This document shows positions 4,377 through 28,507 of a stretch of DNA of 64,000 nucleotides, piece after piece. The notes beneath the pieces are model-generated. The model made no database searches. It saw nothing but the letters and a program-made list of their open reading frames with translations, and had not been told where the DNA came from. The position numbers and the translations under genes were made by a program. This DNA comes from Paramagnetospirillum kuznetsovii (GTDB lineage Bacteria; Pseudomonadota; Alphaproteobacteria; Rhodospirillales; Magnetospirillaceae): the NCBI RefSeq assembly GCF_003284725.1, contig NZ_PGTO01000001.1:434001-498000 (forward strand). Direction: 5' to 3'. How positions within the stretch are numbered: position 1 is the stretch's first letter; every line of letters begins with the position of its first letter.

Positions 4377-4399
4377 TCGCTAAGGAAGGATCCGAACTC

Positions 4400-5176: not shown

Positions 5177-5221
5177 ATGTGGGGACGGAGCCTGGTTCTC
5201 CACCGGGCTCCGATTCATCTC

Positions 5222-5250: not shown

Positions 5251-5291
5251 CGCGCCTTCGATTTTGCATCCCAGTTCCAAGGTTCCAATCC

Positions 5292-5564: not shown

Positions 5565-5592
5565 GCCAAAAGGCTGATTGCATTGATGTTTT

Positions 5593-5624
5593 AATCGGCC
5601 GCGTCCCTTGGGCGCGGCCGATTT
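5593..5624 (+). terminator. Terminator hairpin after rpsT
   Basis: AATCGGCCGCG (5593-5603) and CGCGGCCGATT (5613-5623) form a perfect 11-bp stem with a 9-nt loop. The following T-run is short (TTT). Confidence 0.75.
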
Positions 5625-13327: not shown

Positions 13328-16306
13328 ATGCCGCAAAAGGTTGATCTGTCCGAGGTCATGGCGATTGGCGGCGATGTATGTGCCCGGGAACCGATCCATT
13401 GTCCGGCCCAGATCCAGCACCACGGATTCCTGATCGGCCTTGATCGCCACACCCTGGCGCCGGTGACCCGCAGCGCCAACCTCGATAGCGCATTCCATCC
13501 GCCGCCCGCGGTTCTGACCGCCTGCGCCTCATTTGACCCCGACGGGCCGAACGAGCGGGTGGTGGTGGCTACTCTTCCCGACCTCGGCGAAGTGGAGTTT
13601 CACTGCTTTCTGGGCGGCAGCGTAATCTTCGTTGAATTCGAAAGAGTGCCGCCGGAAGTGGGGCCGGCGGCGGTCCCTGTGATCCTCGATGAGGCGATGA
13701 CCCGCATGCTGGTTATCGCCGATCTCGTCGAATTGTCCGCGGAAGTGGCCGCGACGGTACGCCAAGTCTCGGGGTTCGAACGGATTCTGGTCTATCGCTT
13801 CGACGAGGATGGCAGTGGTGACGTGGTCGGCGAAAGCCTGGTGGCAGACTGGACGCAATCCCTGCTGGGTCTGCGCTTTCCCAGCAGCGACATCCCGGCC
13901 CAGGCCCGCGCCTTGTACCAGCGAACCCGCGATCGCTGGGTTCCGATGCGCGACTACCAGCCGGTAGATTTGGTTCCGCCCGTCGCCGGCGATGGTAAGC
14001 CGTTCGATCTGTCGTTCAGCCGCTATCGCAGCGTTTCAGCCATCCATCGCCTGTACCAGAAGAATATCGGCGTTGACGGCGCGATGTCGGTTTCCATCCT
14101 GCGCGACGGCCGCCTGTGGGGATTGTTGATCGGACATCACCGGCGCCCCCATGTGGTCGGGCCATCGACCCGTCGCCAAGTGGTGGCCCTGGCCCAGTCC
14201 TTCGCCATGCGCCTAGATGCTTTGCTCAGCGTCGAGGAGCGCTGCGCCCACGAGCGCGACATGCGGACGTATTCGGCCATGCTGCGCAAGCTGGCGGGGG
14301 CCGACGATTTCCTTACCGCCCTCACCGAGGGGACGCCCAACATCGTCGACCTGCTGCCCGGGTGCTGCGGCGCGGCGGTGGTATGGGATGATGACCACGG
14401 GGCGGTTCATGTCAAGACGGTGGGCACCACCCCGCCCGACGGCCGCATCGCGGCGCTGACCCAATGGATACGCTCGGTCGGCGAGGCGCCGGTGTTTGCT
14501 ACCGATTGCCTGTCCGCCCGCTATTCCGATTTCTCCGCCTATTGCGACATTGCCAGCGGGGTGCTGGCCAGCTTCTTCGATGATTCCCGCCATCCAGCGC
14601 TGCTGCTGTTCCGGCCCGAGCTGATCCGCTCGGTAGCCTGGGCCGGCAAGCCGGAGAAGGTGGCCGGGCCGGATGGCGTACTCAACCTTCCGCGCCATTC
14701 CTTCGACCGCTGGGTGGAGATCAAGCGGGGGCACTCGCAACCCTGGCTCGGATGGGAATTGGACATTGCCGCCACCATCGCCACAACGGTCAGCGAGGTG
14801 ATCATCCGCCAGATGCGGCGCATTCACGACCTGGATGCCGAGGTGGAGCGCTTCTCGCAGGCCCTCAACCTCAGTTCGACCACGCTTTATCATCAGGATC
14901 GCGACCTGCGGTACATCTGGGTTCACAATCCCCATATCGGTTTCGCCACCAAGGTTGTCGGGCTGACCGACCCCGACCTCTATCCCTCCGAGCTTGCCGA
15001 GGTCCTAGTCGCCATCAAGCGACGGGTGATGGCAAGCGGGGAGGGGGAGCGGGTGGCCCTGCCATCGCGTCGCGACGATTCCGACGCCGAGTGGTTCGAC
15101 TTGTCGGTCGAGCCGCTGAGGGGGGGCGACGGCCAGATCGCCGGTGTCTCCTGCGCGGCGGTGAAGATCACCCAGTACATCCGCACCGAGGCGGCCTTGC
15201 GGCGCAGCGAGGCCCTGCTGCGCGAGGTGCAGCAGATCGCCCACCTCGGCCATTATGTCTACGACTTCGCCCAAGACCGCTGGGAAAGTTCGCCGACGCT
15301 GGATTCCATCCTGGGGATCGGGCCCGATTTCGTGCGCGATTCCGCCCACGGATTCCTGCTGGCAGCCCCGGGGACGGAGGCGGAAACCAAGGGCCTTCTC
15401 GAGCGCCTGGCCACCGGAGTGGTGGATCACTTCGACATGAACTTCCGCATCCGCCGTCATGACGACGGGGCGGAGAGATGGGTGGCCAGCATCGGCCATG
15501 TGGAATGCGACCCCGTTGGCCGCCCGCAACGGCTGATCGGCAGTATCCACGACGTCCACGACCGCATCGAGGCCGAGCAGCGCCTGCGCGACACCCACCG
15601 GGAACTGGAGCGTTCCAATGCCGAACTGAAGCAGTTCGCCTATGTGGCGTCCCACGACCTGCGCCAGCCGCTGCGGACCATTACTAGCTTCCTGGGCTTG
15701 TTGGTGCGCAAGTTGGGGCCCCAGGTGGACGGAGAGGTTCGCGAATTCGTCGATTTCGTCCAGGCTGCCGCGCGACGGATGGATCGATTGATCGTCGATC
15801 TGCTGGAGTATTCAAAGGTCGGGCATGATCGGGTGCCGCCGGGACCGGTCAACCTCGAAGAGGTGGTCGGCGAATGCCTGCATGCGCTGGAGGCGGCCCG
15901 TGCCGAATCCGGTGGCGGGATCGCCATCGTCAATTTCCTTCCCGTCGTCAAAGGGTATCGCGGCGAGTTGGTGCGTCTGTTCCAAAATCTGATCGGCAAC
16001 GCCCTGAAATACCGAGATCCTGAACGCCGGCTGGACGTGGAAATCGGCTGCGCTCGCAACGCCGATGCCTGGGAAGTGTCAATCAGCGACAATGGCATTG
16101 GCATTGCGGCGGCGGACTACGACCGGGCGTTCGGCGTCTTCCAGCGGCTGACCGGCTCGGACGGATATGAAGGCACCGGGATCGGTCTGTCGATCTGCAA
16201 GAAGATTGTCGAGCATCATGGCGGCCAGATATGGATCGAGTCGGAGGTCGGCGTCGGTTCCCGCTTTCGGTTCACGCTTCCCCCTGTGACGGAGGATCGG
16301 GCGTGA
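13328..16306 (+). CDS. bphP: Bacteriophytochrome sensor histidine kinase with two extra PAS domains
   Basis: Red/far-red light sensor kinase, 992 residues. Cys18 in DVCAREPIH is the expected biliverdin attachment site, in the N-terminal PAS domain. The GAF domain carries FPSSDIPAQAR (DIP motif), FSRYRSVSAIH and the LIGHH histidine. The PHY tongue has the PRxSF motif as LPRHSF. Two more PAS domains follow (about 525-630 and 645-750), then HisKA with the phosphorylated His in YVASHDLRQPLR and an HATPase ending GTGIGLSICKKIVEHHGG. The start was set at MPQKVDLSEV; the open frame upstream is unlikely. No response regulator is adjacent. The stop overlaps the heme oxygenase gene that makes its chromophore. 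Confidence 0.95.
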   Translation: MPQKVDLSEVMAIGGDVCAREPIHCPAQIQHHGFLIGLDRHTLAPVTRSANLDSAFHPPPAVLTACASFDPDGPNERVVVATLPDLGEVEFHCFLGGSVIFVEFERVPPEVGPAAVPVILDEAMTRMLVIADLVELSAEVAATVRQVSGFERILVYRFDEDGSGDVVGESLVADWTQSLLGLRFPSSDIPAQARALYQRTRDRWVPMRDYQPVDLVPPVAGDGKPFDLSFSRYRSVSAIHRLYQKNIGVDGAMSVSILRDGRLWGLLIGHHRRPHVVGPSTRRQVVALAQSFAMRLDALLSVEERCAHERDMRTYSAMLRKLAGADDFLTALTEGTPNIVDLLPGCCGAAVVWDDDHGAVHVKTVGTTPPDGRIAALTQWIRSVGEAPVFATDCLSARYSDFSAYCDIASGVLASFFDDSRHPALLLFRPELIRSVAWAGKPEKVAGPDGVLNLPRHSFDRWVEIKRGHSQPWLGWELDIAATIATTVSEVIIRQMRRIHDLDAEVERFSQALNLSSTTLYHQDRDLRYIWVHNPHIGFATKVVGLTDPDLYPSELAEVLVAIKRRVMASGEGERVALPSRRDDSDAEWFDLSVEPLRGGDGQIAGVSCAAVKITQYIRTEAALRRSEALLREVQQIAHLGHYVYDFAQDRWESSPTLDSILGIGPDFVRDSAHGFLLAAPGTEAETKGLLERLATGVVDHFDMNFRIRRHDDGAERWVASIGHVECDPVGRPQRLIGSIHDVHDRIEAEQRLRDTHRELERSNAELKQFAYVASHDLRQPLRTITSFLGLLVRKLGPQVDGEVREFVDFVQAAARRMDRLIVDLLEYSKVGHDRVPPGPVNLEEVVGECLHALEAARAESGGGIAIVNFLPVVKGYRGELVRLFQNLIGNALKYRDPERRLDVEIGCARNADAWEVSISDNGIGIAAADYDRAFGVFQRLTGSDGYEGTGIGLSICKKIVEHHGGQIWIESEVGVGSRFRFTLPPVTEDRA

Positions 16307-16878
16307 GCCTGCGCGAATTTCTACGCGCCGCGACACGGCCCGCCCATGCGCGTATCGATCATCATCCGTTGATGGCGAGGTTGGTTCGCGGGCGGCTCAA
16401 TGCCGAGAACTATGGGACGGCGCTTTCCGCTCTCTATGCTTTGCACGCGCCGATCGAGAAATCCTTCGGCACCTACTTGTCCGCCCCGGATTTCGCACCG
16501 CCGCGCCGCAGCGTCGATCTGGCCTTGGACTTGGCCGAGCTGGGTCTTGACGCCTCGGCTGTGGCTCCGTTGTGGGTCGGTTGCCAGCCGGACAGTCACG
16601 CCGCTTATGTGGGCATGCGCTACGTCATCGAGGGCTCGGCGCTGGGCGGGGCGGTGATTGCTCGCCAGTTGGACCAGCGACTGCCTGTCGCCCTGATGGC
16701 CGCGACCCGATTTTATTGCCGATCGACGGAGGCAGAGGAATGGCCGCGCTTCTGGGGGCTGGTGACGCGGTTGGAGCCCATTGATGCCGATCTTGCATGC
16801 CGACGCGCGGTCGGCCTGTTCAGCGAGATCGAGGCCCTGTGGGACGCGCATCTGGGAGGCGACATCTCCCAAAAATAG
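16303..16878 (+). CDS. bphO: Heme oxygenase (BphO type), biliverdin supply
   Basis: Oxidises heme to biliverdin, the chromophore of the phytochrome upstream. The 191-residue protein has the heme-pocket His in RPAHARIDHHPLM and the conserved distal-helix motif YVIEGSALGGAVIARQL. The GTG start at 16303 lies within the kinase stop (GTGA) and has GGAGGA 6 bases upstream, so the two are translationally coupled. Many bacteria place bphO before bphP; here it is after. Length fits bacterial HO. Confidence 0.9.
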   Translation: MSLREFLRAATRPAHARIDHHPLMARLVRGRLNAENYGTALSALYALHAPIEKSFGTYLSAPDFAPPRRSVDLALDLAELGLDASAVAPLWVGCQPDSHAAYVGMRYVIEGSALGGAVIARQLDQRLPVALMAATRFYCRSTEAEEWPRFWGLVTRLEPIDADLACRRAVGLFSEIEALWDAHLGGDISQK

Positions 16879-17083: not shown

Positions 17084-18257
17084 GTGTCCTGATTCCGAAA
17101 TTCGCATCAAACTTGCCTCTGCTCGGCCAGCGTTCTTGTGCAGAACCGCTGGATCGAGGCGAGGATATCGTCGGCGGATTTGGTCCATCGAAACGGCTTC
17201 GGATCGGCGTTATTGGTTTCGATGAAGGTGTGGATGGCGGCTTCCAATTCGGCGGTGGACCGATGGATGCCGCGCCGGAGTTGGCGGTCGGTGAGAAGAG
17301 CGAAGAATCGCTCGACCTGACTGATCCACGACGACGACGTCGGGGTGTAGTGGGCGTGCCATCGTGGACGCTTTGCGAACCAGTCACGGATGAGCTTGGT
17401 CTTGTGGGTTGAGGCGTTGTCCATGACGACGTGAATGTCGAGATCGGCGGGAACGCTGGCTTCGATGAGATCGAGGAATTTACGGAATTCGGCCGCCCGG
17501 TGTCGTTGGAAGCAACGGCCGATGACGTTGCCCATGGCGACGTCCAGGGCGGCGAACAGTGAGGTGGTGCCGTGGCGCTTGTAATCGTGGCTCCGCCTCT
17601 CCGCCTGACCAGGACGCATCGGCAGCAGGGGTTGGGTGCGGTCGAGGGCCTGGACCTGGGTCTTTTCGTCGACGCACAGGACCAGCGCCCGTTCCGGCGG
17701 ATTGAGGTACAGGCCGACAATATCGCGGACCTTCTCGACGAACTGCGGATTGCTCGACAATTTGAACGTTTCGGCCCGATGCGGCTGTAAGCCAAAAGCG
17801 CGCCAGACTTTATGGACGGTCGAGGGCGCGATGCGTGCCGCTCGGGCCATCGTCCGCACACTCCAATGGGTAGCGTCGGGGGGCGTCGTTTCCAGCGTCT
17901 TCTGGATCAATTCCGCGATGGCCTCGTCGGACACCGAGCGTGGCGCCCCCGGACGGGGCTCGTCAGATAGGCCGTCGAGGCGATCACGGGCAAATCGCTC
18001 ACGCCATTTCCCGACCGTGTGCGGGCCGATCCCGAGTTCCTCGGCAATCACCCGATTCAGCACCCCATCCGCAGCCCTGAGGACAATCCGAGCCCGAAGC
18101 ACCGCGCCTTGTGGTGTTGTCCGCCGTCGAACCCACCCTTCGAGTTCAACCCGCTCCGCTTCACTCAGTTCGATGGAAGATGCCCTGCCACGCGCCATCT
18201 CTGCCTCCCCCCTCAATACGGGGGTGAAGAATGACACTGATTTCAAAAACAGGACAG
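17084..18257 (-). mobile_element. IS630-family insertion sequence, apparently complete
   Basis: About 1.17 kb with one transposase gene on the minus strand. The ends are imperfect inverted repeats. The left end reads GTGTCCTGATTCCGAAAT from 17084; the right end, read inward, gives CTGTCCTGTTTTTGAAAT from 18257. The element is flanked on both sides by TA (17082-17083 and 18258-18259), the target always duplicated by IS630/Tc1-type elements. Removing it restores CCCTAGGG at the site. The flanks show no obvious gene that was broken. Confidence 0.85.
17107..18198 (-). CDS. IS630-family transposase
   Basis: DDE transposase of 363 residues. The N-terminal half has two helix-turn-helix segments (NRVIAEELGIGPHTVGKWRERF and a WSVRTMARAARIAPSTVHKVW region). 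The catalytic core shows the first Asp in VLCVDEKTQ, the second in HVVMDNASTHKT, and the Glu in SWISQVERFF. The start was set at MARGRASSIEL; a frame continues upstream to 18273 but that would cross the right inverted repeat. All three catalytic residues are present, so it may be active. Confidence 0.92.
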   Translation of the reverse strand: MARGRASSIELSEAERVELEGWVRRRTTPQGAVLRARIVLRAADGVLNRVIAEELGIGPHTVGKWRERFARDRLDGLSDEPRPGAPRSVSDEAIAELIQKTLETTPPDATHWSVRTMARAARIAPSTVHKVWRAFGLQPHRAETFKLSSNPQFVEKVRDIVGLYLNPPERALVLCVDEKTQVQALDRTQPLLPMRPGQAERRSHDYKRHGTTSLFAALDVAMGNVIGRCFQRHRAAEFRKFLDLIEASVPADLDIHVVMDNASTHKTKLIRDWFAKRPRWHAHYTPTSSSWISQVERFFALLTDRQLRRGIHRSTAELEAAIHTFIETNNADPKPFRWTKSADDILASIQRFCTRTLAEQRQV

Positions 18258-18497
18258 TAGGGTGCGTTGACATTCATCTGGACCAAATGAACGCGCTGAC
18301 CGCAATGGGACGTCGAACAGGTTAAGCGGGAGCTCGATCATGGTGCGCCGGTCACAGCCACTCCAACGGCAATAATTCCCAAGCCCTCCGAGAAAAATCG
18401 ACCTGCCCCGTAACTTCCGTGTGGCGGGCGGCGAAACCGCTACAGACGCCACGCTGAACGACAGCGGGTGTCCTCGGGAATTTCAAGGAGAATCGCC

Positions 18498-18887
18498 GTG
18501 CAGACTCTGTCGTTCGCGAAGCCCCGGTCGATGATGGTCGCCGTCTTTCTCTTGGCCGTGCCGCAGGTGGTTGAAGCCGGGCAGGCTTATGATTCCAACG
18601 CGTTCGTCGCCGCCCAGGAAGCCGGCAAGAGCATCCTGGTGGATGTGACCGCGCCCTGGTGTCCGACCTGCGCCAAGCAGAAGCCGACCGTGCAGGGCTT
18701 GGAGATGTCCCAGCCCAAGCTGGTGGTCTTCGACGTGGATTTCGACTCCGCCAAGGACGTGCTGAAGCAGTTGCGCGTCACCAGCCAAAGCACCCTGATC
18801 ATGTTCAAGGGCAAGGCAGAGATGGGGCGTTCGACCGGCGAGACCGATCCCGCCGCCATCGCCGCCCTGGTGGGCAAGGGGCTTTAG
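18498..18887 (+). CDS. Exported thioredoxin-like protein with WCPTC
   Basis: A 129-residue protein with an N-terminal hydrophobic signal (about residues 11-28) and a thioredoxin fold. The redox motif WCPTC is at 54-58, preceded by SILVDVTAP. It resembles the C-terminal domain of DsbD. The GTG start was chosen because AAGGAG lies 8 bases upstream. The next gene, 6 bases on, encodes a CcdA-type membrane electron carrier. The pair would therefore act like a split DsbD, moving reducing power from cytoplasmic thioredoxin to periplasmic substrates. Confidence 0.85.
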   Translation: MQTLSFAKPRSMMVAVFLLAVPQVVEAGQAYDSNAFVAAQEAGKSILVDVTAPWCPTCAKQKPTVQGLEMSQPKLVVFDVDFDSAKDVLKQLRVTSQSTLIMFKGKAEMGRSTGETDPAAIAALVGKGL

Positions 18888-18893
18888 GCGGAG

Positions 18894-19616
18894 ATGACCG
18901 CCGCCAACCTCGCCTTCGGCTTTCTGGCCGGTTCGCTGTCGACGCTGTCGCCCTGCGTTCTGCCGCTATTGCCGGTCCTGTTGGGCGGGGCTTTGCAACA
19001 GCATCGGCTGGCGCCCCTGGCCTTGGCCGGTGGGCTGGCCCTGTCCTTCACGGCGGTGGGGTTGTTCGTCGCGACGCTGGGCTTCGCCGTCGATATCGAC
19101 GGCGGGGCCATTCGGTTGGTCGCGGCGGGGCTGATGGTGGCGTTCGGCGCCGTCCTGGCCAGCCCGCGCCTGCAACGCCTCTTTGCCCGAATGGCTGGAC
19201 CGCTGACCGGCGGCGCCAACGGCATACTGGCGCGGATGTCTGGAGACGGGCTGGCGGGACAGTTTCTGCTGGGCGTGCTGCTGGGGGCGGTGTGGTCGCC
19301 TTGCGCCGGGCCGACCCTTGGCGCCGCCATCGGTCTCGCGGCCCAGAGCGGCGCCGCCCCCCAGGCCGCCGCCGTCATGGTCATGTTCAGCATCGGTGCC
19401 ACCGCGCCCATGCTGGCCTTGGGCTATGGGTCACGCCAAGCCTTGTTACAGCGCCGCGCCGCCCTGGCCCGGCTGGCCGATCTGGCCAAGCCGGTCCTGG
19501 GCGCGGTGCTGCTGCTGGTCGGACTTCTGATCCTTTCCGGGCTCGACAAGACGGTCGAGACCCGGCTCACCGACACCATGCCGCCTTGGCTGGTGAACCT
19601 GACCACGCGGTTATAA
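18894..19616 (+). CDS. ccdA: CcdA/DsbD-type membrane thiol-disulfide transporter
   Basis: A 240-residue inner-membrane protein with six predicted hydrophobic segments. The two CcdA-type redox cysteines lie in STLSPCVLPLLP (near residue 22) and AVWSPCAGPTLG (near residue 140). The family carries electrons across the membrane for cytochrome c maturation or periplasmic disulfide reduction. It directly follows the exported thioredoxin. The pentaheme cytochrome downstream is a plausible client, because heme attachment needs reduced CXXCH motifs. Confidence 0.9.
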   Translation: MTAANLAFGFLAGSLSTLSPCVLPLLPVLLGGALQQHRLAPLALAGGLALSFTAVGLFVATLGFAVDIDGGAIRLVAAGLMVAFGAVLASPRLQRLFARMAGPLTGGANGILARMSGDGLAGQFLLGVLLGAVWSPCAGPTLGAAIGLAAQSGAAPQAAAVMVMFSIGATAPMLALGYGSRQALLQRRAALARLADLAKPVLGAVLLLVGLLILSGLDKTVETRLTDTMPPWLVNLTTRL

Positions 19617-19645
19617 CGCGTTTGGTCGTCAACATGGAGACTCGC

Positions 19646-19894
19646 ATGCTCACGTCACTCCGGACTCTCGCCTTTACCATCGCCGTCGGCTGTTTCGTGG
19701 CTCTGGGCAGTGCCGGGGCCTATGCCCAGGCCGCCAATCCCTGCGCCGCCAAGGCGGCCAACCCCTGTGCCGCCAAACCCGCCAATCCCTGCGCCGCCAA
19801 GAAGGCCATGGATGACAAGGCCATGATGGACAAGAAGCCCGCCAATCCCTGCGCTGCCAAACCCGCCAATCCTTGCGCCGCCAAGAAGATGTAG
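19646..19894 (+). CDS. Small exported protein with five NPCAAK repeats
   Basis: An 82-residue product. Residues 1-28 are a signal peptide ending AYAQA. The mature part consists almost entirely of the hexapeptide NPCAAK at 31-36, 39-44, 47-52, 67-72 and 75-80, in an 8-residue period of the form (A/P)ANPCAAK. A short acidic/basic Met-rich spacer (MDDKAMMDKK) lies between copies three and four. Five evenly spaced cysteines plus Met and Lys suggest metal or heme binding or a redox role in the periplasm; this is inference. GGAG lies 6 bases before the ATG at 19646. Confidence 0.8.
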   Translation: MLTSLRTLAFTIAVGCFVALGSAGAYAQAANPCAAKAANPCAAKPANPCAAKKAMDDKAMMDKKPANPCAAKPANPCAAKKM

Positions 19895-19959
19895 CGGCCG
19901 ATGGTCGGCCGGACCGTATCCCGGCCGACCATGCTCCGCTCTGCCCCGAGGAGGCGTAT

Positions 19960-20403
19960 ATGAGCTTAGTTCCCTCCAGGCGTTGGATCATGGTGCTGGC
20001 CGGGTTGGCGATGCTGGTCGTTGCCATTCCACCCGGACGGAGCGCCGGCCACCGGGTCAAGCTGACCGGCGAGGTCATCGATTCCTGGTGCCAGACCACC
20101 GGTATCATGTACGCTCTGGGCACCGCCCATCATCAATGCGCCGTCTGGTGCGCCGTCGGCGGCATTCCGGTGGGCCTGCGCACTCAGGACGGCACCCTCT
20201 ACACCATCCTCAAGGTCGACAAGGATAAGGCGAACGTCGCCAATCCGCGCCTTCTCCGGCTTCAGACCCACGAGGTTTCGGTCGAGGGCGACCTGATCGA
20301 ACGCGATGGGCTGCGTTATCTGCTGATCGATCAGGTGATGGACGATCATGGCATCGTCAACCAGACCCACGCCGATTACGCCATCCAGCCGTTCGGGGAG
20401 TGA
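19960..20403 (+). CDS. Small exported Cys/His protein, function unknown
   Basis: A 147-residue protein with a signal segment at about 8-29. The conserved-looking core is GEVIDSWCQTTGIMYALG, then HHQC, then WCAVGGIPVGL, giving Cys44, His57, His58, Cys60 and Cys64 as a possible metal site. The remainder looks like a small beta-rich fold (TLYTILKVDK, HEVSVEGDLI). I recall similar proteins near respiratory gene clusters but cannot name the family. A strong GAGGAGG precedes the ATG. It shares a pattern with the next gene. Confidence 0.75.
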   Translation: MSLVPSRRWIMVLAGLAMLVVAIPPGRSAGHRVKLTGEVIDSWCQTTGIMYALGTAHHQCAVWCAVGGIPVGLRTQDGTLYTILKVDKDKANVANPRLLRLQTHEVSVEGDLIERDGLRYLLIDQVMDDHGIVNQTHADYAIQPFGE

Positions 20404-20408
20404 GGATC

Positions 20409-20915
20409 ATGCGCGGACTTATTGTCATCCTCTCCCTGTTGCTTTGCTTTCCCGCCGTGGCGGCCGAATCCTGGGGCCTGCCGGGCGAGCAGGAAGCCAG
20501 CTTCGACGGCAAGGTGGTGGATATCCAATGCGCCCTGACCGGCGATTGCCCCAAGGATTGCGGCGCCGGGCGCCGTCAGCTCGGTCTTCTGAAAAAGGAT
20601 GGTACGTTGATCCTGGCCATGAAAAATGCCGATCCATTCGCAGGCGCCACCCGTGATCTGCTGCCCTTCTGCGGCAAGCCGGTCACGGTGGACGGGCTGT
20701 TCACCAGCAACGAGGGCGTGCGCGCCTTCGCGCTTCAGCGGGTCAAGCCGCCCGGCGGCGATTGGATCGCCGCCAATGGCTTTGCCCGCGACTGGGCCAA
20801 GGCCCATGAGCTTAAGCCCGGCTCGCCCCAGTTGGAGGAATGGTACCGCCATGACGAAATGGTCGCGGCACGTATCAAGGCCGAGGGCAAGCTGGGCCTG
20901 GGGCCGGAAAAATGA
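20409..20915 (+). CDS. Small exported Cys protein, likely relative of the preceding gene product
   Basis: A 168-residue protein with a signal peptide (residues 1-19, ending AVAAE). The core FDGKVVDIQCALTGDCPKDCG has Cys41, Cys47 and Cys51, followed by KDGTLILAMKN and Cys88 in LLPFCGKPVTVDG. The order 'G-x-V-x-D, Cys cluster, DGT, beta strand' matches the previous protein, so the two probably arose by duplication and share a fold. The function is unknown. The start at 20409 is preferred over GTG 20400. It overlaps the next gene by 4 bases. Confidence 0.75.
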   Translation: MRGLIVILSLLLCFPAVAAESWGLPGEQEASFDGKVVDIQCALTGDCPKDCGAGRRQLGLLKKDGTLILAMKNADPFAGATRDLLPFCGKPVTVDGLFTSNEGVRAFALQRVKPPGGDWIAANGFARDWAKAHELKPGSPQLEEWYRHDEMVAARIKAEGKLGLGPEK

Positions 20916-22807
20916 GCGTGGCGGCCATCGGCGGAGTCTGGGTTATCTCGGTGCGCGGCTGGCTTGGCGGCTCGCTGGCCGTGCTGTGCGCCTTCCTGGC
21001 GGGGGTGTCGGGTTTCATTCTTTACGAGCTGGACTTGCGCAAGCACGACTACCAGATCCTGAATCTGGCGGGACAGATGCGGGTGGTGGCCTCCTCCCTG
21101 GAACAGCAGGCCAATGACGTGCTCAGCCAGAGTGTTTTGCAGGGCCGTTCCCTCGATCAGAGCTTCGGACTGTTCGAGCGCACCACAGCGGAACGGATCA
21201 GCCTCTACGAACAGATCATCACCGGTTTCGCCAATCGCGAACTTCCCGCCGCTCTGACCGGGCGTGACGAGGCCCTGCGCTGCAATTGGGACAAGCCCTC
21301 CACCAACCAGTTGGATATCTCGGTGGCGCAGTGGCAGCGCTACCGCAGCGGTCTGGCGGCGGCGCGCGGCCCCGATCCCCTTCACCCCCATACCCTGGCC
21401 ATGGCCAATTACATGCTGTCCAACGGCCCCGCCCTGGTGGCCTCCACCGAGGAACTGGCCCGGGCGTTCCAGGCCATGATGGAGGGCAAGCTGCTGCTGG
21501 TCCGGCTTTCGATCGTCGGCATGCTGGCGGGCGGCGCCATGGTCACCGTGTTTGTCCTGCTGCTGCTCGGTCGCACCATCTTGAAGCCGCTGGACCGGAC
21601 GGTGGCGGGCTTTGCCCGGGTCTCCGCGGGTGATCTTGGCTTTCAGGTGGCAGAGGCCGAGACCGTTGAGTTTGGCCGCATGACCCGGTCCTTCAACGAC
21701 CTGTCGCAGCGGCTGCATTCCATGTTCGGGCTGATCGACCATATCGGTCGGGGCTGCGACCTGCGCGAGACCATGGAGTTCATCGTCACCGCCTTTCGCC
21801 GCTTCGTCTCGGTGGATGGATTGGTGCTGCTGGTGGCAGCGCCCGAGGGCGGCCGGTTCCGGGTGGAAAGCCGCCACGGTGCCCCGGTGGCCGCTTGGCC
21901 CGACCTGGCCGATCCTCTGCTGGAGCGCGCGGTGCACGGCAACACCCCGATCATCGCCGGGTCCGAGGCGGGCGAACTGGCCGTGGCCATGGCGAAGAGT
22001 GGTCTTAAGACGGCGCTTCTCCTGCCCATGGGCAGCATCCGCGACGGCGGGGCGGTGCTGGCGGTGACATCCCGGCTGGCCGACGCCTATTCCCCCGAGC
22101 ACCGCCAGTTCCTGGGCAGCATGGCCACCCAGGTGGATGCGGTGCTGTCGCGGACGCTGGCCATGGACGCCCTGGTGGTGGCGGCGGTGCAGGGGCTGGC
22201 CAAGCTGGCGGAAAGCCGTGATCCCGAAACCGGCGACCATCTCGTCCGCATGAGCCTCTATTCCTCCTTCATCGCCGAGGAACTGGGCAAGCGACCCGAG
22301 CACCGCGACCTGATCGACCCCGGCTATGTCCGTTCCGTTCATCGCTTCGCCCCCATGCACGACATCGGCAAGGTGGGCATCGCCGACCGGGTGCTGCTCA
22401 AGCCCGGACGGCTGGACGACGAGGAACGGGTGGAAATGAACCGGCATCCGCTGATCGGCGCCGAGGTGCTGCGCCTGTGCGAGCAGCGCATGAACGAACT
22501 GGGGCGCAGCGTCTTTCAAATCGGCATCGAGATCGCCGAAAGCCATCACGAGAAATGGGACGGCACCGGCTATCCCCACGGTCTTAGGGGAAGCGCCATT
22601 CCGCTGTCGGCCCGTATCGTCGCGGTCGCCGACGTCTTCGACGCCCTCACGTCCAAGCGCCCCTACAAGGATGCCTTCAGCGTGGAAAAAGCCATGGCGA
22701 TCATCCACCAGGATTCCGGCCGCCATTTCGACCCGGAAGTGGTTGAGGTGCTCGATCTCGTCATGCCCGCCGTGCTTGACGTTTATGACCGGCTGAAGCA
22801 CGTATGA
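20912..22807 (+). CDS. Membrane-bound HD-GYP cyclic-di-GMP phosphodiesterase
   Basis: A 631-residue protein. An N-terminal transmembrane helix (about 17-36) and a second near 195-215 bracket a periplasmic sensor region. HAMP follows (TILKPLDRTVAGFARVSAGDL), then a GAF-like domain, then HD-GYP from about residue 415. The HD motif is in APMHDIGKVGI and the GYP motif in HHEKWDGTGYPHGL, and the metal-binding histidines appear intact. It should hydrolyse c-di-GMP in response to a periplasmic signal. It is coupled by ATGA overlaps to the genes on both sides, so the signal may be the redox or metal state handled by this cluster. Confidence 0.92.
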   Translation: MSVAAIGGVWVISVRGWLGGSLAVLCAFLAGVSGFILYELDLRKHDYQILNLAGQMRVVASSLEQQANDVLSQSVLQGRSLDQSFGLFERTTAERISLYEQIITGFANRELPAALTGRDEALRCNWDKPSTNQLDISVAQWQRYRSGLAAARGPDPLHPHTLAMANYMLSNGPALVASTEELARAFQAMMEGKLLLVRLSIVGMLAGGAMVTVFVLLLLGRTILKPLDRTVAGFARVSAGDLGFQVAEAETVEFGRMTRSFNDLSQRLHSMFGLIDHIGRGCDLRETMEFIVTAFRRFVSVDGLVLLVAAPEGGRFRVESRHGAPVAAWPDLADPLLERAVHGNTPIIAGSEAGELAVAMAKSGLKTALLLPMGSIRDGGAVLAVTSRLADAYSPEHRQFLGSMATQVDAVLSRTLAMDALVVAAVQGLAKLAESRDPETGDHLVRMSLYSSFIAEELGKRPEHRDLIDPGYVRSVHRFAPMHDIGKVGIADRVLLKPGRLDDEERVEMNRHPLIGAEVLRLCEQRMNELGRSVFQIGIEIAESHHEKWDGTGYPHGLRGSAIPLSARIVAVADVFDALTSKRPYKDAFSVEKAMAIIHQDSGRHFDPEVVEVLDLVMPAVLDVYDRLKHV

Positions 22808-23967
22808 TTCGCCTTATCCTCCTGCTGTTCGCCTTCCTCCTTTCCGGCGCCGTCGGCGCCGAGGAATACTGGACGCGGCCGCTGAAGCCCCAGGGCAAGG
22901 CCCCGGCGGCATGGTCGGATCTGGAAGCCTCGCTGGACCCGCGATCCTGCGGGGCCTGCCACCCCGACAAGCTGGCGGAATGGAGCGGATCGCTGCACGC
23001 CAAGGCCTTCTCGCCCGGTCTGGTCGGGCAGTTGCTGACCTTCTCGAAGGAGGAGACCCAGGACTGTCTCGACTGCCACGCGCCCCTGGCCGAGCAGGCG
23101 GCGGCCTTCGAGGCGGCCCGGAAGACGGGCAAGGCCCACCTGTCCGAGGCCCAGGGCTTGGCGGCGGCGGGCAATTCCTGCGGCGGCTGTCACCTGCGCG
23201 GCCATCAGCGTTTCGGGCCGCCGCAACGGAGCACCGGCGCTCTCGGCCCGATCAAGGGCGACCTGCCCCATGGCGGCTTTACCGGCGACGCCGATTTCGA
23301 GCGTTCGGAGTTCTGCGCTGCCTGCCACCAGTTTGCCGCCGATCAGGCCATCAACGGTAAACCGCTGGAGAACACCGTGGCGGAATGGCGGGCCAGCCCC
23401 CAGGCCGCCGCCGGGCAGAATTGCCAGTCCTGCCATATGCCCGATCGCCAGCATCTGTGGCGGGGCATCCATGATCCCGTCACCACCGCCGCCGGTCTGA
23501 CCCCCAAAGTTTCCGCCGACCACGACAAGGCCCGCTTCGCCGTGACCTCGACGGGCGTGGGGCACGCCTTCCCCACCTATGTCACCCCTAAGGTCATCCT
23601 GCACGCCGTACTGCTCGACGGGGCAAACAAGCCGAAGCAAGGCACCGAGGCAACTTACGTCATCCAGCGCCGGGTCGAGTTCGACGGCAGCGACTGGCAC
23701 GAAATTTCCGATACTAGGCTGCTGCCGGGACAGAGCGCGGCGGTGGAGATCAACTGGCGGGACGCGACGCGGGCAAAGGTCTGGCTGGAGGTGCAGCCCG
23801 ACGACTTCTACCACTCGGTCACCTATGCCCAATTGCGCCGCGACCTGCCCAAGGCGGGCGCGGCGGCCCGGCTGATCGCCGAGGCCGATTCCCGTACCCG
23901 GTCCACCATCTATACCCTGTTCGCCGCCGAGATCGCGCGGCCCAGCGCTTCGGGAGATCGCCCATGA
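22804..23967 (+). CDS. Pentaheme c-type cytochrome
   Basis: A 387-residue exported protein with a signal peptide (1-19). It has five heme-binding motifs: CGACH (49-53), CLDCH (88-92), CGGCH (126-130), CAACH (171-175) and CQSCH (207-211). The spacing resembles cytochrome c554-like multiheme proteins. The C-terminal part is a non-heme, probably beta-rich domain containing GVGHAFPTYVTPK. The partner and substrate are unknown. It starts within the stop of the HD-GYP gene (ATGA), and its own stop overlaps a 47-codon gene in the same way. Confidence 0.93.
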   Translation: MIRLILLLFAFLLSGAVGAEEYWTRPLKPQGKAPAAWSDLEASLDPRSCGACHPDKLAEWSGSLHAKAFSPGLVGQLLTFSKEETQDCLDCHAPLAEQAAAFEAARKTGKAHLSEAQGLAAAGNSCGGCHLRGHQRFGPPQRSTGALGPIKGDLPHGGFTGDADFERSEFCAACHQFAADQAINGKPLENTVAEWRASPQAAAGQNCQSCHMPDRQHLWRGIHDPVTTAAGLTPKVSADHDKARFAVTSTGVGHAFPTYVTPKVILHAVLLDGANKPKQGTEATYVIQRRVEFDGSDWHEISDTRLLPGQSAAVEINWRDATRAKVWLEVQPDDFYHSVTYAQLRRDLPKAGAAARLIAEADSRTRSTIYTLFAAEIARPSASGDRP

Positions 23968-24107
23968 ACATCGCCCGCTCCCCCGACGAACAGCCCGCCA
24001 CATCCGAGCGCAAGCAATGGTTCGGCACCATGGGCGATATCCGCGCCGGAATTTCGGTCAGCGTGGCCAATGTGGAGGGCTTCCTGTCGGCCATGCGCCA
24101 GGCTTAA
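23964..24107 (+). CDS. 47-residue microprotein coupled to the pentaheme cytochrome
   Basis: ATG at 23964 overlaps the cytochrome stop (CCATGA), the same arrangement as the other joints of this operon. The product starts MNIARSPDEQPATSERK and ends FLSAMRQA. It has no signal peptide or transmembrane helix, and no cysteine. The segment GTMGDIRAGISVSVANVEGFL is moderately hydrophobic and could form an amphipathic helix. No family is recognised. It ends at TAA 24105-24107, touching the stop of the convergent DUF1223 gene. Translation is supported only by the overlap. Confidence 0.5.
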   Translation: MNIARSPDEQPATSERKQWFGTMGDIRAGISVSVANVEGFLSAMRQA

Positions 24108-24811
24108 CGCAGCGGAATGGTCGCCGCGCCCAGCATCCGCCCCTGGCCGGCCCCCTGGACCAGCACGGCGACCATGGTGGCGCTGTCGGGCACCGACGAC
24201 AGGTCGAGGCTGACGGTCTTGGCCGAACCATCCCAAAGTCCCAGGGGATAGACGACCCGGACAATGGAATAATCCTTCAGAATCCGCCCGGCGTTTTCGC
24301 CCCGCGCCACCCTGGTCTCGCTCTCGCCGCCATAGGCGACCACGGTAATCTCGGCCGGAACTCCGGCCCCCAGTTCGACCGCCAGCTTGCCGTCAGCCCG
24401 CGACAGATGAATGGGCAGGCCGTCGCGCTTGCTTTCCAAGGCCGCCAGGACGGCGGGACGGTCGAAGCCCACCACGTCGGTGGCGCCCTGGATCACCATC
24501 TGGGGGGTATAGATGGTCGGGAGATTCAGACTGTGGGCATAGGCATTCTGCCGCGACGTGGCGGCCTTCAGGCTGAACGGATCCTTCCAGCCGAGGCGGT
24601 CCCAATAGTCGATGTGATAGGCCAGGGTGATGAGGCTCGGCCGCTTGGCCAGTTCACCCAGCAGGCGGTCGGCGGGTGGACAGGAGCTGCACCCTTGCGA
24701 GGTGAACAGCTCGACCACAACCGGCATGGGCTCGGCGCGGACGGCCGGGCCCAGCAGCAGAGGACCGGCCAAGCTAAACGCCACGCCCATGATCCGCGCC
24801 GTCCGTCCCAT
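24104..24811 (-). CDS. DUF1223 exported thioredoxin-like protein
   Basis: A 235-residue protein with a signal peptide (about 1-26) followed by VVVELFTSQGCSSCPPADRLLGELA, the hallmark of DUF1223, a thioredoxin-fold family with a CxxC-like SSC centre. The middle segment AYHIDYWDRLGWKDPFS is also conserved in the family. The function is unknown. It is convergent with the Cys/heme operon, sharing 4 bases with it, and lies just ahead of the LysR gene on the same strand. Its nearness to another exported redox cluster may be relevant. Confidence 0.88.
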   Translation of the reverse strand: MGRTARIMGVAFSLAGPLLLGPAVRAEPMPVVVELFTSQGCSSCPPADRLLGELAKRPSLITLAYHIDYWDRLGWKDPFSLKAATSRQNAYAHSLNLPTIYTPQMVIQGATDVVGFDRPAVLAALESKRDGLPIHLSRADGKLAVELGAGVPAEITVVAYGGESETRVARGENAGRILKDYSIVRVVYPLGLWDGSAKTVSLDLSSVPDSATMVAVLVQGAGQGRMLGAATIPLR

Positions 24812-24841: not shown

Positions 24842-25774
24842 CTATTCGCCACGGGAAAGGGAAAGGTTTCCCGCTCCTTCGGACAATCGCTGACAAAGGC
24901 GCGGCCGGGCGAAATCGAGAAAGGCCCGCAGCTTCAGCGGCAGCGGCCCCTGGGCGCCATGGATCAGGTTGACCGGCCAAGGCGGCGGCTCGAAATTCGC
25001 CAAGACGACCTGAAGTTCGCCCTCTCGCACGGATTTGGCGGCCTGATAGGACAGCACACGGGTCAGCCCGACACCCGCCCGCGCGGCATCAATGGCCGCC
25101 TCGGCGGTATTGACCGTCAGCCGGAAGTGAACGGGGACCGCGATTTCCGACCTTCCCGCCCCGAAGGTCCAGGATTTGCCGACGGCCAGCGCCTGGAAGG
25201 AAATGCAGTCGTGGCCGCCAAGCTCGGACGGCGTGGCGGGAACACCCCGTTCAGCCAGATAGGCGGGGCTGGCGCAAACCATCTGGCGGACCGTGCCCAG
25301 GCCCATGGCGATCAGGCTGCTATCGGGAAGGTCGCCGATCCGGATCGCCACGTCGACATGATCGTCCAGCAGATGGACCCAGCGGTCCGACAGCACCAAA
25401 CGGGCGTCGATGTCGGGGTGCAGCCGCAGAAACGCAACCACCACCGGCAAGACATGCAGGCGGCCGAAGACGATGGGGGCGGTGATGACCAGATCGCCCT
25501 TCGGCGTGGCGTATTCGCCCGCCGCGGCGCGTTCTGCCTCGCCCACCTGTTCCAGAATGCGGCGGCAGGCCGCCAGATAGGATTGACCGGCCTCGGTCAG
25601 GGCCAGCTTTCGCGTCGAGCGATGCAGCAGCCGGGCACCCAAATGGGCCTCAAGCTCGCCGACCTTGCGGCTGACGGTGGCGAGCGGCACTCCCAATTGG
25701 CGGGCGGCGGCGGAAAAGCTGCCGCCATCCACCACCGCCACCAGGATCGACATAGCCTCAAGACGGTCGGTCAT
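24842..25774 (-). CDS. LysR-family transcriptional regulator
   Basis: A 310-residue regulator with the N-terminal winged HTH (SILVAVVDGGSFSAAARQLG, then VSRKVGELEAHLGARLLHRSTR) and the periplasmic-binding-protein-like effector domain. It is transcribed away from the AhpD-like and flavin-type genes at 25883-27129, the usual LysR layout, so it probably controls them. The shared gap (25775-25882) is AT-rich and should hold the operator; TAATCATCGCTCATTA near 25802 is suggestive. The ATG at 25774 was chosen over 25789. Confidence 0.9.
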   Translation of the reverse strand: MTDRLEAMSILVAVVDGGSFSAAARQLGVPLATVSRKVGELEAHLGARLLHRSTRKLALTEAGQSYLAACRRILEQVGEAERAAAGEYATPKGDLVITAPIVFGRLHVLPVVVAFLRLHPDIDARLVLSDRWVHLLDDHVDVAIRIGDLPDSSLIAMGLGTVRQMVCASPAYLAERGVPATPSELGGHDCISFQALAVGKSWTFGAGRSEIAVPVHFRLTVNTAEAAIDAARAGVGLTRVLSYQAAKSVREGELQVVLANFEPPPWPVNLIHGAQGPLPLKLRAFLDFARPRLCQRLSEGAGNLSLSRGE

Positions 25775-25882: not shown

Positions 25883-26434
25883 ATGTCCCTGATCGCCACG
25901 CCCGCCACCATCGAAGACGCGCCCGCCGCCTCCCAGCCGCTGCTTCGCGCCGTCAAAGCCCAATTGGGTGTCGTGCCCAACCTGTTCCGGCTGGTTTCCA
26001 ACAGCCCCGCCGCGCTGGAAGGCTATCTCGGCCTGTCGGGCGCCCTGGGCAAGGGGACGCTGTCGGCCCAGACCCGCGAGCGCATCGCCTTGGCGGTGGC
26101 CGAGATCAACGGCTGCGACTACTGCCTCGCCGCCCATTCCTATCTGGGCAAGACTCTGGCGAAGTTGGACGACGCCGAGATCGCCGCCAACCGGCACGGC
26201 GTTTCCACCGACGCCAAGGCCGACGCGGCGGTACGCTTTGCCGCCAAGATCGTCCATCAACGCGGCCGCACCGACGAGGCCGATCTGAAACTGGTCCGGG
26301 CGGCTGGCTATGACGACGCCCAGATCGTCGAGATCGTGCTGCATGTCGCGCTCAACACCTGGACCAATTACATCAATCTGGTGGGCGCCACCGACCTTGA
26401 TTTCCCCGCCGCCCAGACCCTGAACGCCGCCTGA
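25883..26434 (+). CDS. Carboxymuconolactone decarboxylase/AhpD-family peroxidase-like protein
   Basis: A 183-residue cytoplasmic protein. The segment ERIALAVAEINGCDYCLAAHSYLG carries the CxxC-x3-H centre of AhpD-like alkylhydroperoxidases. The N-terminal part (QLGVVPNLFRLVSNSPAALEGYL) matches the uncharacterised peroxidase-related subfamily. It probably takes part in peroxide or electrophile defence. It is divergent from a LysR gene, with a flavin-type gene downstream, a common stress-response unit. Confidence 0.9.
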   Translation: MSLIATPATIEDAPAASQPLLRAVKAQLGVVPNLFRLVSNSPAALEGYLGLSGALGKGTLSAQTRERIALAVAEINGCDYCLAAHSYLGKTLAKLDDAEIAANRHGVSTDAKADAAVRFAAKIVHQRGRTDEADLKLVRAAGYDDAQIVEIVLHVALNTWTNYINLVGATDLDFPAAQTLNAA

Positions 26435-26499
26435 CGCGCCAAGCCGCCGCCCGACACGGCCGGGTGGCGGCTCATCCGTCTTCAGCGAGGACAATCGCC

Positions 26500-27129
26500 A
26501 TGAGCCTCCCGCACAAACCGGCCAGCGACATCGCCTTCTCCCCGGCGGTCAAGGCGGTGCAAAGCCGCATGGGATCGCGCGCCGCCTATGCCCGCATGGA
26601 AACCGGCGACGGCTGGGAAAGCCGCGTCACGCCGGACCTGGCCCGCTTCATCGCCTTGCAGACCAGCATCTTCATGGCCACCGTCAATGCCGAGGGCCAG
26701 CCCTATATTCAGCACCGCGGCGGCCCACCGGGCTTTCTCCATGTGCTCGACGACCGGACCATCGGCTTCGCCGATTTTGCCGGTAACCGGCAATACATCA
26801 CGCTGGGCAATCTGGCGGACAATCCCAGGGCCCATCTGTTCCTCATGGATTATGCCCAGCGGCAACGCGTCAAGCTGTGGGGGGAGGCGAGGGTGGTCGA
26901 GGATGACAAGGACTTGATCACGAGGCTGATGCCGCCGGACTACAAGGCGCGCCCCGAGCGGGCCATCCTGTTTTCCGTCGCCGCCTGGGACGCCAATTGT
27001 CCGCAGCATATTCCCCAACGGTTCGAAGCCGCCGAAGTGGCGGCCCTGCTGGACGAGCGCGACCGGCGCATCGCGGCGTTGGAGGCCGCGTTGGCGGCAG
27101 CGCGACACTCCCCTGGCGGCGAAAAATAA
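26500..27129 (+). CDS. Pyridoxamine 5'-phosphate oxidase-like FMN-binding protein
   Basis: A 209-residue protein of the split-barrel flavin fold. Typical segments are FIALQTSIFMATVNAEGQPYIQHRGGP, IGFADFAGNRQYITLGNLADNPRAHLFLMDY and a C-terminal coiled coil. It is more likely an FMN- or F420-type reductase than a vitamin B6 enzyme. The ATG at 26500 follows AGCGAGGA; a GTG at 26464 is less likely. It lies 65 bases after the AhpD-like gene and is probably under the same LysR regulator. Confidence 0.85.
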   Translation: MSLPHKPASDIAFSPAVKAVQSRMGSRAAYARMETGDGWESRVTPDLARFIALQTSIFMATVNAEGQPYIQHRGGPPGFLHVLDDRTIGFADFAGNRQYITLGNLADNPRAHLFLMDYAQRQRVKLWGEARVVEDDKDLITRLMPPDYKARPERAILFSVAAWDANCPQHIPQRFEAAEVAALLDERDRRIAALEAALAAARHSPGGEK

Positions 27130-27227
27130 TGCCGTCCGCCATGGGAACGAGGGAACTGGCTGTAACCAATCCGCCAATACCGGCGAATACACTTCAGATT
27201 CCCGCTGAAACAAAGGCCATTCCAGCC

Positions 27228-27866
27228 ATGGATATTGCGGCCGAGACCCCGTTCGAGGCATTGTCGGGCTTGATTGGAATAAAGGGTAGCGCTGCCGTGA
27301 CCAGCGGCGAGCAAAGGGAACCCGGCGCCGTTTGGGGCGCCCTGATGGCGGCCGCCCAGGATGGCGACGGCGCCGCCTATGGCCGTTTGCTGGCGGAAAT
27401 AACCCCGATGCTGCGCCGTGCCATCGGACGCCGGTGGGGCGGCGCCGATTGCGAGGACATCGTCCAGGAGGTACTGATCTCGCTGCATCGCGTCCGCCAC
27501 ACCTATGATCCCGGTCGGCCGTTCATGCCCTGGCTGATGGCCATCGCGCAGTTCCGCGTCGCCGATGCCGCCCGCAAATCGGCCCGGCGCACCGTGCACG
27601 AGCGGCCGGAATGGAGTTTCGAATTCGGCCTGCCCGATGTCGCCGCCGACGAACCCGATGAGCCCCAGGGCGATCCGCAACTCCTGCGTCGCGCCATCGC
27701 CAACCTGCCCGAAGGCCAGCGCCGCGCCGTCCAGCTGTTGAAACTGGAGGAATGCTCACTGAAGGAGGCTGCGGCCGAAACCGGCATGAGTGTTGGCGCA
27801 TTGAAGGTGGCGGTCCATCGCGGATTGAAGGCTCTGCGGGCCGCCATGAAGAAAACGGAGCGATGA
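27228..27866 (+). CDS. ECF RNA polymerase sigma factor
   Basis: A 212-residue sigma factor. Region 2 is seen in AAYGRLLAEITPMLRRAIG and DCEDIVQEVLISLH. Region 4 is seen in LPEGQRRAVQLLKLEECSLKEAAAETGMSVGALKVAVHRGLKALR. It overlaps by 4 bases the gene for its NrsF-type anti-sigma factor. The start is uncertain: ATG 27228 was chosen, with ATG 27129 giving a 33-residue extension. GGAACT near 27151 would match an autoregulated ECF promoter (GGAAC type) lying in the upstream gap. Confidence 0.9.
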   Translation: MDIAAETPFEALSGLIGIKGSAAVTSGEQREPGAVWGALMAAAQDGDGAAYGRLLAEITPMLRRAIGRRWGGADCEDIVQEVLISLHRVRHTYDPGRPFMPWLMAIAQFRVADAARKSARRTVHERPEWSFEFGLPDVAADEPDEPQGDPQLLRRAIANLPEGQRRAVQLLKLEECSLKEAAAETGMSVGALKVAVHRGLKALRAAMKKTER

Positions 27867-28507
27867 TGCGGACAGACGACCTGATCCTCTCCCTGAGCGA
27901 AGATGCGCGACCGGTCCGGCGCTTGCCGCCGCCCGGCCGCCGCGCGCTGGGCTGGTTCGCCCTGGCGGTTCCGGCGGTGGCCGTCATCGCCCTGGCCATG
28001 GGTTTGCGCGCCGATCTGGGTTTGCGCATGGCCGAACCCGCCTTCGTGATCCAATTGACCGCCTGCGGCGTGACCGCGTTCTGCGCCGCCGTCGCGGGCC
28101 TCGCGTTGACCATTCCGGGAACGTCCAAGCTGTGGGCATTGCTGCCGGTGCCGACCATGCTGGTATGGCTGGGGGGATTCGGCCGTCAATGTGTCCTGGA
28201 ATGGCTGGCCCCGGACTCCGGTGAACTGTTGAGCGGTCCCCACCTCCACTGCCTGCCGGACATCGCGGTGATCACCGCCATCCCCACGGCCGTCCTGCTG
28301 TTGATGCTGCGGCGTGGCGCCTGTTTCGAGCCCCGGCTGCCGGTGATGCTGGGCGGGCTGGCGGCGGCGGCCCTGGCCCATGGCGGGCTTTCGCTGGCCC
28401 ATCCCGAGGATGCCGGATTGCTGGTCCTGATCTTTCAATTCATTGCCATTGGAGCCTTGGCGCTCGTCGTCGGAAGCCGCCTGAATACCGTACCGAAGTT
28501 ACGGTAA
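27863..28507 (+). CDS. nrsF: NrsF-family (DUF1109) anti-sigma factor
   Basis: A 214-residue protein with six predicted transmembrane helices. It starts with RTDDLILSLSEDARPVRRLPPPGRR, the cytoplasmic arm typical of NrsF, and ends with LAHPEDAGLLVLIFQF before the last helix. NrsF proteins hold ECF sigma factors inactive at the membrane; in Caulobacter and related bacteria they respond to metal or oxidative stress. The overlap with the sigma gene supports the pairing. ATG 27863 and ATG 27866 are both usable. Confidence 0.88.
   Translation: MMRTDDLILSLSEDARPVRRLPPPGRRALGWFALAVPAVAVIALAMGLRADLGLRMAEPAFVIQLTACGVTAFCAAVAGLALTIPGTSKLWALLPVPTMLVWLGGFGRQCVLEWLAPDSGELLSGPHLHCLPDIAVITAIPTAVLLLMLRRGACFEPRLPVMLGGLAAAALAHGGLSLAHPEDAGLLVLIFQFIAIGALALVVGSRLNTVPKLR

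Follow-up and report, generated by a model that had tools for sequence, protein, structure and literature searches.

A 64,000-nucleotide stretch of DNA from Paramagnetospirillum kuznetsovii, a relative of magnetotactic species (the whole stretch is called the window here), carries at positions 18498-24107 a compact run of genes for a thioredoxin-like protein, a CcdA-family protein, a Cys-repeat peptide (NPC peptide), two small proteins (g4 and g5), an HD-GYP protein and a pentaheme cytochrome. We consider it reasonably probable that this run is an envelope-stress operon of a SigF-NrsF regulon, acting against periplasmic thiol or metal stress. A promoter-like site in front of the first gene suggests that the operon is probably switched on by the envelope-stress sigma factor sigma-F, and a sigF-nrsF gene pair lies 3 kb downstream with an exact sigma-F site of its own. 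On this reading a known regulator (SigF-NrsF) would control a new set of effectors. The original prediction for this DNA had proposed a single periplasmic system with c-di-GMP as the reporter of its state; the observation behind it is real, the regulation is stronger than was described and the c-di-GMP claim is weaker.

Layout of the operon

The genes of the run, all on the + strand, are as follows (g1 to g8 in order):

18498..18887, +, g1, putative exported thioredoxin-like protein with WCPTC (PF00085, 46.3 bits)
18894..19616, +, g2, membrane protein of the CcdA/DsbD_TM family (PF02683, 47.7 bits)
19634..19894, +, g3, putative exported peptide with five NPCAAK units, possible alternative start at 19646, no family
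19960..20403, +, g4, putative exported protein with a tentatively predicted OB fold and C44-x12-H57-x2-C60-x3-C64
20409..20915, +, g5, putative exported protein with a tentatively predicted OB fold and C41, C47, C51 and C88
20912..22807, +, g6, HD-GYP protein with a periplasmic region, HAMP and a weak GAF match (PF13487, 102.1 bits)
22804..23967, +, g7, putative exported pentaheme c-type cytochrome with five CXXCH; three multiheme cytochrome Pfam models over the cut-off
23964..24107, +, g8, remnant of a chemoreceptor gene, 47-amino-acid open reading frame (ORF), by DNA alignment to locus L015

The eight ORFs lie on one strand as originally described, and they comprise seven intact genes and one remnant. 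The last four joints are as tight as had been claimed (a gap of 5 bases and then three overlaps of 4 bases), while the earlier ones are gaps of 6, 17 and 65 bases (g1-g2, g2-g3 and g3-g4). The called start of g1 is the GTG at 18498, and a further in-frame GTG is found at 18468. Membership of the first two genes in their families is clear: g1 has a thioredoxin domain with CXXC, and g2 has a DsbD_TM domain with two cysteines, both after SP. None of g3, g4, g5 and the 47-amino-acid ORF scored over a Pfam or NCBIfam cut-off. Export of most of the products appears likely from signal-like N-termini read by eye; to call almost all of them cysteine-rich was loose, as the thioredoxin has two cysteines, CcdA two and g4 three. 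The full eight-gene order was unique among the loci examined, and sub-blocks of it recur.

Sigma-F promoter-like sites and the sigF-nrsF pair

In Caulobacter the sigma-F motif is reported as GTAACC-N16-CGAA (PMC3511200). A site with one mismatch to this motif stands 62 bases before the start codon of g1. The original prediction missed it, and the operon unit should be taken to start there. The elements of the putative regulon around the operon are:

18410..18435, +, sigma-F promoter-like site GTAACT-N16-CGAA, 62 bases before GTG 18498
24104..24811, -, DUF1223 gene, likely of the same regulon (PF06764, 193.1 bits)
24845..24870, -, sigma-F-like site GAAACC with one mismatch, before the DUF1223 gene
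27162..27187, +, exact sigma-F site before sigF
27213..27866, +, sigF, extracytoplasmic function (ECF) sigma factor gene with Sigma70_r2 and r4 domains
27752..28507 (ORF as listed), +, nrsF, anti-sigma gene (PF06532, 93.3 bits)

The real start of nrsF is probably at about 27863, because the NrsF match begins soon after that position. Its protein has C110 and C130 in the window and in L014, and C109 and C129 in L178; the cysteine pair to compare them with in Caulobacter is C131/C181.

The site before the operon is found at the same place in relatives, exactly in L014, L015, L016, L019, L020, L022 and L181 and with one mismatch in L021, and the sites before the DUF1223 gene and sigF have the same placement in L014 and L015 as well. 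All nine loci in which the unit starts at thioredoxin (or its remnant) or at the NPC gene have the site. When the nine upstream regions were aligned, GTAAC, positions 1, 2 and 4 of CGAA and two more columns were invariant at a mean identity of 47%; as every region was trimmed to start 15 bases ahead of its site, the register of the alignment is partly given by construction. A more distant g4-g5 locus without an NPC gene (L017), which lies outside this alignment, had no site before the pair. The sigF-nrsF genes themselves are linked in the window, L014, L015, L019, L022 and L178, and nrsF alone in L177.

The 15 related loci (197,920 bases) contained 12 exact and 18 one-mismatch sites, and 11 of the 12 exact ones stood directly before a gene of the operon set, namely NPC or thioredoxin genes or their remnants (7), sigF (2), the cytochrome (1) and a chemoreceptor (1). 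The twelfth, in L177, preceded no identified gene. The 44 comparison loci (592,665 bases) held no exact and 29 one-mismatch sites, and loci L023-L097 gave one exact site in a total of 1,038,891 bases. Overall, a site with at most one mismatch precedes the module in 11/15 related loci.

The g4-g5 pair and a possible role in copper trafficking

An alignment of g4 against one genome collection gave 273 relatives, and the best 80 loci were taken for comparison. Those of their record titles that name a group below the phylum place them in the Alphaproteobacteria; a few go no further than Proteobacteria or Pseudomonadota. The g5 gene directly follows g4 in 77/80 of these loci, which is more than chance would give, with a gap of 2-9 bases in 67 of the 76 that could be measured. 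Two of the three loci without g5 (L032, L091) are contig ends and the third (L048) is a real absence. Among 289 genomes drawn evenly across the Alphaproteobacteria, strong g4 matches (E <1e-40) occurred in 11, and g5 occurred in the same 11, in both cases with the own genome included (Fisher 4e-20, or 1e-18 without the own genome, kinship being ignored).

The cysteine sites are conserved. C44, H57, C60 and C64 of g4 are kept in 59/59 members, with a C-H spacing of 12 in 56 and 13 in 3, and g5 keeps C41 and C47 in 60/60 and C51 and C88 in 59/60. Predicted models had a mean predicted local distance difference test score (pLDDT) of 85.9 for g4 and 88.5 for g5. In Foldseek these models retrieved nothing at E 0.001 (best E 0.015 and 0.076); the top rows were mostly OB-fold proteins, none of them significant, which makes the OB fold consistent as an assignment but weak. 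Profile searches of the PDB with g4 and g5 gave a best E of 0.46. Membership in a known family was rejected, the Pfam scans of 59 and 60 members having returned only stray weak matches (DUF4431 in 9; NfeD, DUF5818 and LPAM_1 in 1 each).

A weak g4-like domain was seen in nine further genomes and at a second place in G149 (E 5.7e-7 to 2.6e-11), and 10/10 of these distant domains have the C-x12-H-x2-C-x3-C motif. In six of the distant neighbourhoods (L131-L135 and L137; the fetched L136 was left out) the domain closes longer proteins, and 5/6, read by eye, have an ORF with the same kind of start directly upstream. The one such ORF tested, in L131, is a fusion of Ferric_reduct and Rieske by Pfam.

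We clustered the genes within 8 kb of g4 in the 80 loci, naming each family by Pfam on one member or one pair. The SCO1/SenC family is found in 47/80 (median start 935 bases past the g4 match), a response-regulator/kinase group in 19, MsrP-type Oxidored_molyb in 6 and an FGE-like family in 5. In 20/80 loci an ORF containing three or more NPC units lies near the pair. Intact thioredoxin-CcdA stands beside the pair only in L022, with a remnant in L018 (Paramagnetospirillum caucaseum SO-1), and the fetched sequence includes g7 in just three loci, L018, L019 and L022.

These neighbours raise the question of whether the pair serves copper trafficking, with g4-g5 (and SCO1/SenC in relatives) binding Cu(I) and passing it to a cuproenzyme, the NPC peptide buffering copper, CcdA/thioredoxin reducing the metal-site cysteines and stress defence being secondary. 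The frequent SCO1/SenC-family gene (confirmed by Pfam on one), the invariant Cys/His motif of g4, the four near-invariant cysteines of g5 and a bufferin-type cluster beside L178 all speak for it. However, the window operon is without an SCO gene, the own genome has its five SCO matches on other contigs, and no cuproenzyme gene was recognised beside g4-g5. We therefore regard copper trafficking as an unlikely alternative to the SigF-NrsF stress operon, albeit the most serious one.

The HD-GYP protein and the chemoreceptor remnant

The g6 protein has the domain and motifs of an HD-GYP phosphodiesterase, with an HD_5 score of 102.1 against a cut-off of 27.2 bits and the motifs HDIGK and HHEKWDGTGYP. 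A single redox system of the periplasm whose state is reported by this protein through c-di-GMP would fit with its 4-base overlaps with both neighbours, and an ortholog occupies the same place after g5 in L019 (identity 58% over residues 1-217 and 77% over residues 430-631). However, L019 is the only one of the 80 g4 loci with a full-length relative of g6, two same-genus relatives have no HD-GYP gene between g5 and the cytochrome, and the own genome has 17 HD_5 matches. On its distribution we rejected the HD-GYP protein as part of the core of the operon, and a c-di-GMP reporter system in the sense of the original prediction is improbable.

The ORF g8 was likewise rejected as a small gene. The alignment of its DNA to the chemoreceptor region of L015, where the chemoreceptor gene follows the same cytochrome as in the window, breaks up into three separate pieces, and these identify g8 as the deletion scar of a chemoreceptor gene. 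The chemoreceptor relative in L019 (709 amino acids) has MCPsignal, HAMP and 4HB_MCP domains and an exact sigma-F site of its own. In the L015 assembly the chemoreceptor, on the reverse strand, is in two overlapping frames and may be broken.

Because the HD-GYP gene is rare and a chemoreceptor belongs to the gene set of L019 and L015, the cluster appears to be what a sigma factor switches on, with signalling proteins as optional additions. Envelope stress could plausibly be linked to motility or c-di-GMP, but as a secondary feature.

Thioredoxin-CcdA, the cytochrome and the modules of the operon

The cytochrome g7 has a distribution of its own, with matches at E <1e-100 in 9/60 relatives and in 3/289 genomes of the class, the own genome being included in both. 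Its best NCBIfam relative, ExtKL (NF040886), reached 43.8 bits against a cut-off of 250. In the PDB the best single-sequence relative was MccSep (9wt8/9wt9), and with a profile cytochrome c552 (5ze8) came first. Selenocysteine in g7 was considered and rejected, as the in-frame stops noted in five orthologs (L154, L155, L168, L170, L171) are all terminal.

The surroundings of the cytochrome vary. In L176 it is followed by the NPC peptide, thioredoxin and CcdA, and in L181 it is divergent from thioredoxin-CcdA, both without g4-g5. In L178 sigF-nrsF, cytochrome, NPC peptide and thioredoxin come in this order, with bufferin-type DUF2282, MNIO and DUF2063 genes nearby; sigF-nrsF and the bufferin-type genes lie at 2402-6269. 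The cytochrome is divergent from a gene of the NPC-P460 type in L163, has only NrsF with it in L177 and is without other markers nearby in L164, L179 and L180. Elsewhere the NPC-g4-g5 module is often accompanied by SCO1/SenC and sometimes by MsrP. From this distribution we read the window operon as two joined modules with the NPC peptide in common, NPC-g4-g5 on one side and cytochrome-NPC-thioredoxin-CcdA on the other.

We also considered whether thioredoxin-CcdA simply serve heme attachment to g7, as a c-type cytochrome assembly unit in an otherwise loose neighbourhood. The arrangements in L176 and L181 would suit this idea, but the cytochrome is intact in L014 and L015 despite remnants of thioredoxin-CcdA, and it occurs without adjoining thioredoxin-CcdA in L177, L179, L180 and L164, so we give this explanation very little weight. 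A chance neighbourhood created by rearrangement, with a common function limited to g4-g5, would account for the unique full order and for parts gained and lost across relatives, but the same few genes recombine together, share sigma-F sites and adjoin sigF-nrsF, which makes chance the least credible explanation of all.

Observations that weigh against the proposed SigF-NrsF operon

Several observations do not favour the envelope-stress operon of a SigF-NrsF regulon. The window's own site carries one mismatch. In 4/15 related loci (L163, L164, L179 and L180, which have no g4-g5 or thioredoxin-CcdA) there is no site before the cytochrome, and in L023-L097 no exact site was found before the g4-g5 pair, which makes control by sigma-F specific to a lineage. 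Thioredoxin-CcdA are remnants in two same-genus relatives in which NPC-g4-g5-cytochrome are retained; the reductant pair is therefore dispensable or replaceable there. Within the genus g5 is present in only 3/17 genomes, the own one included. Finally, in the own 4.4-Mb genome the looser pattern gave 5 sites versus 9 for the reversed control, and the second pattern 5 versus 3. These counts mean that the site alone says little; the argument depends on where it lies and on its conservation. Together the two patterns gave 9 distinct sites in that genome, and 3 of them lie within a 9-kb stretch, each before a gene; these are the sites of the operon, DUF1223 and sigF. At the other sigma-F-like sites of the genome (L242, L243, L246 and L249-L251) no recognisable regulon gene was found among the longest ORFs read by eye.

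NPC-repeat proteins

The g3 peptide consists of cysteine repeats with one Met-rich stretch. The codon pattern for NPCAAK occurs in 58/289 alphaproteobacterial genomes, and the reversed control gave six matches in the table. In 28 chosen NPC regions (L212-L239) a P460-like match was seen at the repeat ORF in 14 and an FGE-like gene in 5; Pfam confirmed P460 and FGE in L025, and the P460 match in L154 was below the cut-off. NCBIfam on seven NPC proteins gave nothing near a cut-off, and a literature search on the repeat letters returned only unrelated papers.

It is conceivable, if on balance doubtful, that the NPC(A)AK-repeat proteins and g4-g5 form an undescribed periplasmic thiol buffer, in which the repeat peptide would be a sponge for metal or oxidant and the OB-fold proteins a relay with the site C-x12/13-H-x2-C-x3-C. 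The sponge would be recharged by CcdA/thioredoxin, or in relatives by SCO or MsrP. If true, this buffer would correspond to the Met-rich MrpX scavenger, with cysteine in place of methionine. The longer NPC-P460 fusions with FGE-like neighbours might contain modified cysteines.

NPC-repeat ORFs with a P460-like domain stand beside an FGE-like gene in L025 (7618-8754), L212, L216, L219, L227 and L238. In L228 (4154-6265) an exact sigma-F site at 5453-5478 precedes an NPC-P460 ORF that is divergent from sigF-nrsF. A family of about 243 amino acids (DUF6969 in L020) adjoins NPC genes in L016, L020, L021, L023, L025, L042 and L073, and its 5' end carries one-mismatch sigma-F-like sites in two of them, L016 and L020.

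Known systems and a proposed mechanism

In Caulobacter crescentus sigma-F is described as responding to chromium and cadmium and being restrained by NrsF, and the targets reported are YedY/MsrP, DoxX and two DUF2282/DUF692/DUF2063 clusters, YedY/MsrP and both clusters being driven under chromium stress (PMC3511200). The window resembles the system of that account in its ECF sigma factor with NrsF, the GTAACC-N16-CGAA motif, the site before sigF and the candidate periplasmic stress effectors, and differs from the targets named there in having thioredoxin-CcdA, the NPC peptide, g4-g5, the cytochrome and DUF1223 (PMC3511200). In Azospira suillum, according to a review, SigF/NrsF drives a Met-rich scavenger peptide (mrpX) and a methionine sulfoxide reductase (yedY1) (PMC5748585). 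As outlined there, mrpX-yedY1 shares with the window SigF/NrsF, a small exported redox-active peptide and a dedicated reductase, whereas the window peptide has Cys repeats instead of being Met-rich and CcdA/thioredoxin stand in place of MsrP (PMC5748585). No MsrP-type gene was found by Pfam among the eight operon products. Bufferins, described as DUF2282 proteins with MNIO in clusters that often include a sigma factor and NrsF, are similar in being small exported products that contain cysteine and in the sigma factor/NrsF association (PMC12452194); no DUF2282 or MNIO was present among the eight operon products, the rest of the window not having been scanned for them. The window also has the DsbD_TM protein beside a CXXC thioredoxin-like protein of CcdA/DsbD systems, but unlike in those systems the pair sits in a sigma-F-type operon. 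Among the papers listed by literature searches on related combinations, none described this system.

As a description, a periplasmic electron-transfer or metal-handling system was fair. We specify it as metal or redox stress of the envelope because of the sigma-F site together with sigF-nrsF, the SCO1/SenC and MsrP-type genes near g4-g5 in other loci and the bufferin-type cluster in L178. For the thiol state of the operon products, their binding of metal or oxidant and the flow of electrons through them, we infer the following by analogy. Thiol-reactive agents in the periplasm (copper, chromium, cadmium, reactive chlorine or oxygen) would disturb NrsF and free sigma-F, upon which the operon would make a periplasmic thiol pool (the NPC peptide, g4 and g5) that binds metal or absorbs oxidant. 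CcdA would pass cytoplasmic reducing power to the thioredoxin, which would reduce the thiols of g3, g4 and g5 again; in relatives SCO1/SenC or MsrP may occupy a comparable place. The cytochrome g7 would donate electrons to the metal or oxidant or take them from it, and the HD-GYP protein here and the chemoreceptor in relatives could tie the stress to motility or attachment.

Such an operon would give the SigF-NrsF stress response new effectors and would provide a testable model of how periplasmic thiols are reduced under metal or oxidant stress. The comparison also delimits an exported NPC-repeat family and two co-travelling families, g4 and g5, that contain a candidate metal site and for which our scans yielded no Pfam or NCBIfam model.

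Other features of the window

Two scans have no bearing on whether the operon is one transcript: a terminator scan found 9 candidates versus 5.1 expected, and a sigma-70 scan gave 0 sites. A plasmid search gave no g4 relative and short pieces of the operon only, the feature-listed matches being HD-GYP or CcdA/thioredoxin genes. Just upstream of the operon lies a transposase-like gene (17107-18273, -, PF13358 DDE_3), which we take to be of the IS630 kind (a label of our own) and whose ORF stops before the sigma-F site at 18410. Further upstream (13256-16878, +) a gene for a phytochrome-type histidine kinase overlaps a heme oxygenase gene, and genes with a CMD domain and of the PNPOx type (25883-27129, +) are situated between the operon and sigF.

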